From Alphaproteobacteria bacterium (GTDB lineage Bacteria > Pseudomonadota > Alphaproteobacteria > Caulobacterales > Hyphomonadaceae), in contig JAHJYW010000048.1 of assembly GCA_018827375.1 (NCBI GenBank), forward strand, positions 62,001 through 126,000: a DNA stretch of 64,000 nt, read 5' to 3'. This document shows, in pieces, positions 1,665 to 24,755 of the stretch. The translations under genes were made by a program, and so were the position numbers. Position 1 is the stretch's first letter, and each line of letters begins with the position of its first letter. The notes under the pieces are model-generated. The model was given only the letters and a program-made list of their open reading frames with translations. It made no database searches and was not told the DNA's origin.

Positions 1665-2570
1665 ATGGATTGGGGTAAGCTCAGATCATTTCACGCGGCG
1701 GCCGAAGCGGGCAGCCTGACATCAGCGGGCGAACGGCTCGGGATATCGCAGTCGGCTGTCTCGCGACAGATCGCGGCCCTGGAAGAAGCGCTGGGCGTCT
1801 CGCTGTTCCAGCGGCATGCGCGCGGGCTGGTAATGACGGATTCAGGCCATACGCTGTATCGCTCGACGATGGAGATGGCGGCGGCTGCGACCTCGGCCAA
1901 TGCGGCGCTGAAGGACCAGCAGGATACGCCACAAGGCGAGCTGATCGTGTCGGCGCCGGTGGCGTTCGGGTCGACCTGGCTGGTGCCAAGGCTGGGCGGG
2001 TTCACGAAGAAGCATCCGGACCTGCATCTCGACCTGAGGCTCGACGATAACGACTATGACCTGCTGAAACTTGAGGCGGAATGTGCCATCCGGCTGTGGG
2101 CGGCGGACAAGGCGGACCTGATCCAGCGCAAGCTCGGCACCGTGGCGACCAACCTCTATGCTTCGCCGGAATACCTGAAGCAGAAGGGCATGCCGCGCAC
2201 GCCGCAGGACCTCGATAACCACCGTATCATTGCCTATGGCGACGAGAGTTCCTTGCTCAACGTGATGAGCTTCGCCTGCCGGGTTGGCCGGGATGACAGC
2301 CCGCCGCGTCCGGCTTCGCTGAAGCTGAACAATGTGTTCGCCATGCTGCGCGCCGTAGATGCCGGGCTCGGCATTGCCGACGTGCCGGACTATATGGCCA
2401 GCACGATGCCGCGCCTTGTGAAAGTGCTGCCGGACCATGTCGGGCCGATCTTCGATCTCTATTTCGTCTATCCGAGCGACCTGCGCCGATCCAAGCGCGT
2501 GGCGGCCTTTCGCGACTTCGTGACGGCCGAGACGGAGCCTCTGCGGCGCCCGTCCATGCACCAAGGCTAG
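1665..2570 (+). CDS. LysR-family transcriptional regulator
   Basis: A 301-residue LysR regulator of normal length. Residues 1-60 carry the winged helix-turn-helix (AGSLTSAGERLGISQSAVSR), followed by a linker helix and a periplasmic-binding-like effector domain from about 90 to 295. The typical GxGIADVP stretch is near residue 240. LysR proteins usually bind the promoter of a divergent neighbour, which here is trmO across a 117-bp gap, but the target could lie elsewhere. The effector cannot be read from the sequence. Confidence 0.9.
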   Translation: MDWGKLRSFHAAAEAGSLTSAGERLGISQSAVSRQIAALEEALGVSLFQRHARGLVMTDSGHTLYRSTMEMAAAATSANAALKDQQDTPQGELIVSAPVAFGSTWLVPRLGGFTKKHPDLHLDLRLDDNDYDLLKLEAECAIRLWAADKADLIQRKLGTVATNLYASPEYLKQKGMPRTPQDLDNHRIIAYGDESSLLNVMSFACRVGRDDSPPRPASLKLNNVFAMLRAVDAGLGIADVPDYMASTMPRLVKVLPDHVGPIFDLYFVYPSDLRRSKRVAAFRDFVTAETEPLRRPSMHQG

Positions 2571-2623
2571 TTTGAACATTTGATGAAATGCATTTGTGCA
2601 TGGGTGGCTTGCTGTCATGCAGG

Positions 2624-2651
2624 TTGTGCTGCAGCTGCGAAGCTTTATCTA
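2624..2651 (+). promoter_or_regulatory. Putative promoter of candidate small RNA
   Basis: TTGTGC (2624-2629), a 16-bp spacer and TATCTA (2646-2651) predict a start near 2658. The same -35 hexamer and spacing precede the RNase P RNA in this window (TTGTGC-N16-TATATG), which supports it as a housekeeping-type promoter. Confidence 0.4.
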
Positions 2652-2657
2652 CAAAGC

Positions 2658-2769
2658 ATGCCTTGGGCCCCGGGCATTTCCCAATCTCCTCCGATTGGGC
2701 GTTTCCTCCCCCCTTCGGGGCCCAATACTCATCAGCCCGGCGCGTTCATTCGCTGCCGGGCTTTTTTTT
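2658..2769 (+). ncRNA. Candidate trans-acting small RNA with CCUCC (anti-Shine-Dalgarno) segments
   Basis: A region of about 110 nt after the LysR gene has no credible ORF but strong RNA structure. An outer stem pairs GGGCCCCG (2665-2672) with CGGGGCCC (2716-2723). Inside it, CCCAATC (2680-2686) pairs with GATTGGG (2693-2699) around a UCCUCC loop. A second pyrimidine run containing CCUCCCCCC (2705-2713) is unpaired in this fold. An alternative fold pairs ATTGGGC (2694-2700) with GCCCAAT (2720-2726). An intrinsic terminator ends it. This layout recalls alphaproteobacterial anti-Shine-Dalgarno RNAs such as the cuckoo RNAs and the alpha-r14/15 families, but a family assignment is inference. Confidence 0.5.
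2735..2769 (+). terminator. Intrinsic terminator (small RNA or LysR transcript)
   Basis: GCCCGGC (2735-2741) pairs perfectly with GCCGGGC (2755-2761) and is followed directly by eight T residues (2762-2769). It points along the plus strand. Confidence 0.85.
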
Positions 2770-2960: not shown

Positions 2961-3425
2961 CTAGAGGTTGGCGCGCAGCATCCAGGCGGTTTTCTCGGAA
3001 ACGTCGGCGCGGCGGGTCATCAGGTCGACGGTCACGATGTCATTGTTTTCCTCGGCAACCTTGAGGCCGATCTTGGCGGCGCGGCTGATCGCTTCGTGGC
3101 CTTTGACCAGGTTCGAGATCATGGCTTCAGCCTCCGGCACGCCATTGTCCGGCTTGATTGTGGCTTCTTCCAGCATTTCAGCGGACGAACCCGGCGCGAA
3201 ATGGCCGAGGGCGCGGATGCGCTCGGCAATCTCGTCGAGCGCGGTCCAGAGCTCTGTATACTGGGTCATGAACATGCCGTGCAGCGAGTTGAATCGCGGG
3301 CCTGTCACGTTCCAGTGGTAACCATGGGTCTTCACATAGAGGGCATAGGTCTCGCCGAGCAGCACGCTCAGTGCCTGCGCGGAAGACTGGCGGGCCTTGT
3401 CGTTCATTCCGATATCAATGGGCAT
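2961..3425 (-). CDS. dps: Dps/ferritin-like DNA-protection protein
   Basis: A 154-residue four-helix miniferritin that stores iron and shields DNA during starvation and peroxide stress, normally as a cytoplasmic dodecamer. The ferroxidase landmarks are His37-Trp38-Asn39 and His49, spaced 12 residues apart as in E. coli Dps. The helix ending in LDEIAERIRALG is characteristic. Residue 53, four after His49 and usually acidic, is Met here, so iron oxidation may be altered. The ATG at 3425 has an AGGAG upstream. The longer reading from 3470 adds residues not found in the family. Confidence 0.9.
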   Translation of the reverse strand: MPIDIGMNDKARQSSAQALSVLLGETYALYVKTHGYHWNVTGPRFNSLHGMFMTQYTELWTALDEIAERIRALGHFAPGSSAEMLEEATIKPDNGVPEAEAMISNLVKGHEAISRAAKIGLKVAEENNDIVTVDLMTRRADVSEKTAWMLRANL

Positions 3426-3521
3426 GGGATTCTCCTGTATCTCTAGCACCTGTACGTCGCAGATGGGCATTCGATCCCTATTTTACCAATCAATAGTAGC
3501 TGGCTGAACTATAGACGCAGT

Positions 3522-24243: not shown

Positions 24244-24369
24244 ATCTCTCAGTCAACTGAACGCCTTCAGAGGGCAGCCGATAAGTACCTAATGCACGAA
24301 ACAGCCAATGATGGGCAAAATAAATATATCAAGCTTACCCGCTTTGGTTGCGTGCGCGGGTGTAAATAT

Positions 24370-24755
24370 GACCAGACGGCCTGTAAGCCGGGTTCTGTTC
24401 CCCGCGCCCTCTCGGGACATCGGTTCGGCAACCATTCCTCTGCGACACGCCTCACAGCCTGCCTCTCGCGACACACCCGGGGCGCGGGCTGAAGACATCC
24501 CATATGCGCCCCCTACTTGGTCTTGCTCCAGGCGGGGTTTACCTTGCCAGTCCTGTTACCAGGCCCGCGGTGGGCTCTTACCCCACCCTTTCACCCTTAC
24601 CTGCCACCGAAGCGGCAGGCGGTCTGCTCTCTGTGGCACTTTCCCTCGGCTCGCGCCGGGCGGAAGTTATCCGCCGCCTTGTCTCCCTGGAGCCCGGACT
24701 TTCCTCCAATGGCAGGTTACCCCACCACCAGCGGCTGCCCGGCCGTCTGGTCATT
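24370..24755 (-). ncRNA. rnpB: RNase P RNA (class A)
   Basis: This is the catalytic RNA that trims 5' leaders of tRNA precursors. On the minus strand it opens with the P1 strand GACCAGACGGCCGG and the conserved GGTAACCTGCCATTGGAGG. It then carries GAAAGTCCGGGCTCC and the universal ACAGAGCAG-type segment. It closes with ACAGAACCCGGCTTACAGGC and the matching P1 strand GGCCGTCTGGTC. About 385 nt is normal for an alphaproteobacterium. ORFs drawn across it are spurious. Confidence 0.97.

Follow-up and report, generated by a model that had tools for sequence, protein, structure and literature searches.

We found that a 64,000-nucleotide stretch of Hyphomonadaceae DNA (the window) carries, downstream of a LysR-type regulator gene, a conserved gene for a small RNA (sRNA) with two C-rich, anti-Shine-Dalgarno (anti-SD) segments. 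An anti-SD sRNA of about 110 nt had been proposed here in an earlier note, and the proposal is well supported by conservation, covariation and an invariant GUUUCCUCCC segment. We consider it probable that the RNA is a stand-alone, trans-acting sRNA that is activated by LsrB and blocks ribosome-binding sites, as the Hyphomonadaceae version of the lsrB-sRNA pair. The locus is best read in this way because a putative LsrB/VtlR orthologue adjoins the RNA in 42 of 44 loci, a VtlR-like palindrome lies at about -63, and AbcR of the Rhizobiales provides a precedent. The parts of the locus, in window positions, are:

1665..2570, + strand: LysR-type regulator gene, lsrB-like (putative LsrB/VtlR orthologue, from protein similarity and linkage)
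2588..2601, no strand: palindrome ATGCA-N4-TGCAT, proposed LsrB operator, centred about -63 from the predicted start (conservation, shuffles)
2624..2651, + strand: promoter TTGTGC-N16-TATCTA (-35 TTGTGC 2624-2629, 16 nt, -10 TATCTA 2646-2651)
2658..2769, + strand: sRNA gene, about 112 nt (start predicted from the -10 box and the conservation boundary)
2663..2672, + strand: closing stem, 5' arm UUGGGCCCCG, pairing with 2716-2725 (double changes)
2680..2699, + strand: inner hairpin SL1 with loop UCCUCC at 2687-2692 (aSD1; fold, family double changes)
2701..2710, + strand: aSD2 linker GUUUCCUCCC, likely seed (invariant in the aligned rows)
2705-2713, + strand: second C-rich segment CCUCCCCCC (sequence)
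2716..2725, + strand: closing stem, 3' arm CGGGGCCCAA (covariation in genus and family rows)
2735..2769, + strand: intrinsic terminator with an 8-U tract at 2762-2769 (fold, double changes)
2961-3470, - strand: dps gene, convergent with lysR and the sRNA (gene call)

From 5' to 3', the order of parts is palindrome, promoter, start near 2658, 5' arm, UCCUCC hairpin, GUUUCCUCCC, 3' arm and terminator. In 42 of the 44 loci lysR lay upstream of the sRNA on the same strand, the distance being 86-111 nt in the loci compared; the remaining two were contig ends. The RNA had been described as lying between lysR and dps. The lysR side of this description held, but dps was present in the fetched flank in only 23 of the 44 loci. 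A GC-rich hairpin between A and T runs at 2902-2934, on the 3' side of dps, is probably a two-way terminator. An Rfam scan placed the sRNA in no family at gathering; RNase P RNA class A (24368-24750, - strand) was the sole match at gathering within the window.

Conservation and distribution of the sRNA

We searched 81 genomes by DNA similarity and found a match to the sRNA in 47. These comprised 41 of the 42 genomes of the genus (Hyphomonas), own genome included, with the missing one 74% complete; three of the seven remaining family genomes, among which G043 matched over just 24 bases; and three genomes of the order, with short matches in the terminator region. The nearest LysR proteins, from H. 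chukchiensis and H. oceanitis, were 99% and 98% identical, which identifies the genus as Hyphomonas. At loci of named relatives the RNA was present in 26 of 29; the exceptions were a contig that breaks off within lysR and two loci whose LysR genes are distant (27-29% identity).

Conservation began sharply at 2658, 7 nt past the -10 box. Over 39 genus rows, mean identity was 1.00 in the core, 0.89 in the terminator, 0.92 in the -10 box, 0.76 in the -35 box and 0.58 in the spacer between -10 and the start. The promoter noted earlier was correctly placed, with a conserved -10 and a moderately conserved -35; an automatic consensus scan listed neither this promoter nor the sRNA terminator.

Genome-wide searches with a model of the sRNA (R1) gave matches in 34 of 120 order genomes at E 0.001. 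The match was strong (E 1.2e-5 or better) in 25 of them, and all 25 lay downstream of lsrB when coordinates were compared by eye; none of the nine weak matches was near lsrB. LsrB protein was found in 71 of the 120 genomes, and all 24 same-family genomes with lsrB in this set carried the RNA. Each of the 13 genus genomes searched with R1 had a single strong copy, and the own genome gave one R1 match.

Two tandem R1-type sRNAs (922-1035 and 1186-1298, - strand) were seen behind trxB-lsrB in a genome of the same family (G046, locus L113), an arrangement that resembles the abcR1-abcR2 tandem. Four metagenome bins titled Acidobacteria or Sulfopaludibacter (L149, L158, L161, L162) carried the sRNA and an 85%-identical Hyphomonas-type lysR, so their titles are probably wrong.

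RNA structure and covariation

The sRNA structure exceeds chance and its stems covary. The minimum free energy was -52.6 kcal/mol, whereas shuffled sequences averaged -35.5 +/- 3.4 (z -5.0). Pairs were counted in two alignments. A3 is a sequence-only alignment of 36 genus rows from the 44 loci, leaving out L029, L046 and L053 (other genera) and L003, L016, L024, L041 and L042 (identical or near-identical). A5 contains 24 hand-chosen family loci (12 from the genus, 12 others) fitted to R1, and leans toward structure. These were used instead of A2 (MAFFT), whose set g4 rows were out of register in the closing stem; the counts of A4, in which chance matches were fitted to the model, were also set aside.

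In A3, 99.9% of 864 cells were paired, with 23 double-changed cells across three pairs, two in the closing stem and one in the terminator; the inner hairpin SL1 showed only a one-sided A-U/G-U change. The numbers of paired and double-changed cells and the covariation score were each reached by 0 of 500 shuffles, the number of double-changed pairs by 44 and the number of pair types by all 500. In A5, 97.8% of cells were paired and 16 of 24 pairs were double-changed (closing stem six, SL1 three, terminator seven), and none of 500 shuffles reached any of the five measures. Variants of the closing stem included GGGCCCC/GGGGCCC, GGGUCCC/GGGACCC and GGGUCCU/AGGACCC. Two nested stems and an intrinsic terminator had been read from the window alone, and the compensatory changes found in genus and family relatives bear them out.

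In the predicted ensembles of the 36 genus rows, the first loop was unpaired with probability 1.00 and the core with a mean of 0.76, and the closing stem formed with a mean probability of 0.96 (lowest 0.44, row L004). Forbidding the closing stem cost 10.4 kcal/mol in the window and a mean of 6.1 over the 36 rows. The earlier note had also drawn two mutually exclusive folds, with a possible switch that exposes or hides the second C-rich segment. Both folds can be drawn in the window sequence, but the alternative is not conserved in the genus, where its hairpin paired 77% of cells and its outermost pair formed in 8 of 36 rows. One pair of this hairpin had 8 double-changed cells, and its covariation score was reached by 1 of 500 shuffles. 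We rejected the switch for the genus, in which the core is predicted to be mostly open.

The more distant L053, L113 and L116 have different closing arms that are complementary by eye. Their unconstrained folds preferred local hairpins, with part of the core paired with the 3' arm. These predicted folds argue that the clamp is not constant beyond the genus and its closest relatives, and a switch of another kind may exist in these three relatives. The L113 stretch, cut short of the terminator, folded no better than shuffles (z -0.28).

The anti-Shine-Dalgarno core

The GUUUCCUCCC linker was invariant in 36 of 36 genus rows and 24 of 24 family rows, and CCUCC in the first loop was found in 32 of 36 and 21 of 24. 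With more variation in the first loop, the second segment is the better candidate for the seed. This C-rich linker, and not the terminator, was the most conserved part of the sRNA (1.00 versus 0.89). Both C-rich segments pointed out previously are present as letters and UCCUCC does occupy the loop at 2687-2692; the second, also placed in a loop at the time, sits in the linker.

The aR8 RNAs share a published core, UUUCCUCCCU, which is the same core as that of the sRNA linker; in Caulobacter SisA it is described as the pairing core and pairs with the sponge CrfA, and the target used there was a TonB receptor mRNA (PMC12559287). We found 9 of the 10 bases of this 10-mer in the window (last base C) and all 10 in L029, L103, L104 and L105.

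The upstream regulator and a candidate operator

When the LysR protein was searched against solved structures, the best chain was 9hh1 (E 5e-70; next chain 6e-29), which is LsrB of A. tumefaciens (PMC11975290). The protein is best read, from this similarity, as an LsrB/VtlR orthologue. The earlier reading missed both this regulator and its likely operator, which lie outside the interval it covered. LsrB was called unique to Rhizobiales in a 2025 paper (PMC11975290) and stated to be present in many Alphaproteobacteria in another (PMC7486931). The aligned stretch covers four cysteines of 9hh1, only one of which is retained in the window protein; this residue, C140, is present in 16 of 41 aligned sequences; C205 is found in one of the 41, the window's own.

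Upstream of the lsrB orthologues, L113, L116 and 25 of 29 class loci have a gene with a CxTCDG motif, which we take as the mark of TrxB. TIGR01292 confirmed the five TrxB-like genes scanned and was above its cut-off in L113 and L116. In the order, no trxB was seen beside lsrB in L001, L029, L106 or L118, and in the window lsrB is flanked by a TrmO-like gene (77.0 bits, below the cut-off of 93.25), not by trxB. Both L113 and L116 also have R1 matches, and they share the gene order of Agrobacterium, trxB-vtlR-abcR1-abcR2, in which VtlR directly activates abcR1 (PMC7486931); in S. meliloti the abcR1 promoter is LsrB-dependent with a box at -61 to -49 (PMC8844928).

We looked for the palindrome in the 200 bases behind lysR. 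Of 38 distinct genus stretches, 24 had the strict form (shuffle mean 0.08) and 34 the loose form (1.28), in related rows whose counts are not independent. Strict and loose forms were found in 10 and 11 of 13 stretches from other genera of the family, in 3 and 8 of 26 from other families of the order, and in 4 and 7 of 29 from the class. Even the loose form was missing in 4 of the 38 genus and 2 of the 13 other-genus stretches. The arms were conserved at 0.92 and 0.99 versus 0.53 and 0.69 in the flanks. The position, about -63, is a usual distance for an activator site. Compared with the published VtlR box GCAT-N3-TG-N3-T (PMC7486931), the window palindrome matches all but the last T.

In the whole genome ATGCA-N4-TGCAT had three sites and its reversed control one. 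The other two palindromes (L170, G000:C2:164311-164324; L172, G000:C47:120902-120915) were read by eye, and L172 lies between divergent genes that by eye resemble lipA and an acyl-CoA synthetase gene.

Proposed mechanism and alternative explanations

We propose that the sRNA is transcribed from its own promoter and that the LsrB/VtlR orthologue would bind the palindrome near -63 and most likely activate it. With Hfq, for which the own genome has a gene, the unpaired GUUUCCUCCC, helped by the UCCUCC loop, would pair with GGGAGGAA-type ribosome-binding sites. This pairing would block translation, with genes for metabolism and for uptake across the outer membrane as the probable targets. The pattern GGGAGGAA-N2-12-ATG was found at 35 places in the genome versus 0 for the reversed pattern, an excess that mostly reflects Shine-Dalgarno sequences in general. 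Among 30 of these 35 loci, several open tiny frames only. Three of ten hand-picked candidate proteins with GGGAGGAA before ATG had TonB-receptor plug domains, a count from which no enrichment is claimed. The target control pattern gave 20 places, whose encoded proteins were judged by eye.

Less likely, though a real contender, is a diverged extra aR8/MmgR/SisA copy behind lsrB, a sibling of the true aR8 for which the LsrB linkage would be secondary. The sRNA and the genome's own aR8 copy have GGCGUUUCCUCCC in common, and several aR8 copies are described in Caulobacterales (PMC12559287). RF00519 gave 36.2 and 31.3 bits for the two L113 copies, 34.3 for L116, 28.3 for L053 and 25.6 for L001; however, all these scores are below the gathering value of 41. 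The linkage to lsrB is also constant in the family, and the available part of the aR8 description names no closing stem (PMC12559287). Such an origin can be compatible with an LsrB-activated sRNA.

It is unlikely that the RNA lacks a promoter of its own and is processed out of the 3' untranslated part of the lysR transcript, as SorX derives from ompR-1 (PMC9438474). In favour of such an origin, the RNA follows lysR on the same strand at 86-111 nt, SorX is 3'UTR-derived (PMC9438474, PMC8625941), and some class relatives look like SorX. Against this, the -10 box is conserved (0.92) and the conservation boundary follows 7 nt on, with poorly conserved bases between (0.58). The palindrome, too, sits at a usual distance for an activator. 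We give very little weight to the idea that the stretch has no function in trans and is merely the lysR terminator region or an element acting in cis on the next gene: it ends in a terminator behind lysR, but dps is convergent and in 23 of 44 flanks only, and the C-rich linker is more conserved than the terminator. A small leaderless protein from the ATG at 2658, which is present in 36 of 36 genus rows, is hardly credible and was rejected, as its frame and length vary across these rows (19 to 95 codons or open to the stretch end, with the core in all three frames), L046, L103, L104 and L106 have no ATG, and the base pairs covary.

lsrB-linked RNAs across the class

Of the 142 class genomes surveyed, 81 (own included) had an LsrB match at 1e-50. 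A conserved sRNA with a UCCCA hairpin loop, a CCUCCCUGUU linker and a terminator was seen behind lsrB in many alphaproteobacterial families (L060-L088, e.g. L088:2562-2625 and L070:2666-2731). Fifteen of 29 inspected class loci had GUC(U/C)CCCAGACGU...GC(C/G)UCCCUG plus a terminator, and model R2 was built from these 15. R2 matched 68 of the 142 genomes at E 0.001. Sixty places had E 3e-8 or better; of these, 43 (in 43 genomes) were behind lsrB on the same strand, at 162 to 2846 nt (median 228), and 17 were not; 15 of the 43 genomes are the model's own and 28 are independent. In the own genome R2 matched the aR8 RNA weakly (25.4 bits, E 1e-5) and did not match the window RNA.

Twenty class loci, 14 of R2's 15 among them, gave nothing in Rfam at gathering. 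At a looser threshold, four class loci matched SorX (42.0, 40.9, 38.7 and 25.9 bits; gathering 46.6) and three of these four matched suhB (35.1, 30.0 and 26.7 bits; gathering 41). Among the 142 class genomes RF02345 gave a match at E 0.01 in only one, and that match was below its cut-off. Our literature searches found no paper with the class string, nothing joining LsrB, sRNA and Caulobacterales, and, for Hyphomonas small RNA and Hfq, only titles on other subjects.

A broader reading, which we regard as close to an even call but no better, is that an old trxB-lsrB-sRNA unit spans the Alphaproteobacteria and has kept its regulator, palindromic operator and anti-SD seed, while the RNA body was rebuilt or swapped from one lineage to the next (AbcR in Rhizobiaceae, SorX-like RNAs across many families and, in Hyphomonadaceae, an aR8-like RNA with a clamp). 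If this is true, AbcR, SorX and aR8 would be branches of one superfamily. The AbcR regulator-RNA pair has been studied so far in plant- and animal-associated relatives, and in the Rhizobiales LsrB/VtlR activates the neighbouring AbcR (PMC7486931, PMC8844928). We find lsrB linked to an anti-SD RNA in a marine genus and also, where the RNA body differs, in many class families. It can now be tested whether a general nutrient or stress switch came first and the AbcR circuit known from host-associated bacteria arose late from it, and whether the logic of a regulator-RNA pair persists as its RNA changes in sequence.

Comparison with known sRNA families

The best of the scan by E-value was anti-hemB (RF02837; 7e-4). 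In the window stretch anti-hemB, the Betaproteobacteria toxic sRNA (RF02278) and ar14 (RF02344) scored 25.2, 20.5 and 19.0 bits against gathering values of 49.5, 50 and 58.8, all weak; what they have in common with the window RNA is CCUCC segments and a terminator. SorX (RF02784, Rhodobacter) has a similar anti-SD core, but its model found nothing in the window stretch at E values up to 10.

Like AbcR (ar15, RF02345), the window sRNA lies downstream of lsrB/vtlR with a similar box upstream. AbcR carries one anti-SD motif in a hairpin and a second in the linker before the terminator (M1 CUCCCA, M2 GUUCCC; PMC5461406). The window RNA likewise has two, the UCCUCC loop and the GUUUCCUCCC linker, although their letters differ from M1 and M2, and the tandem copies in G046 (L113) are a further likeness. 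The window RNA differs in its sequence, in the closing stem around hairpin and core, and in its single R1 match in the own genome, whereas AbcR is described as always multi-copy (PMC3712013). RF02345 gave no match up to E 10 in 2560-2960 and none in the own genome at E 0.1. AbcR is also characterised by Hfq binding and by repression of ABC transporter mRNAs; the own genome has an Hfq gene.

As in aR8/MmgR/SisA-D (suhB, RF00519), a UUUCCUCCC(U) core is single-stranded after a hairpin and is followed by a terminator. In contrast to aR8, the window RNA scored 25.6 bits against a gathering value of 41, is linked to lsrB, and has an extra closing stem, with one arm between the core and the rho-independent terminator. 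The genome has a separate true aR8/suhB RNA (G000:C10:13417-13488, L054; 54.4 bits). Membership of aR8 (RF00519) or ar15 (RF02345) was rejected, as both Rfam models failed. Because the AbcR and MmgR/aR8 models failed, though the aR8 core is common to both RNAs, we regard the window sRNA as a new variant and not as a filed member of either family.
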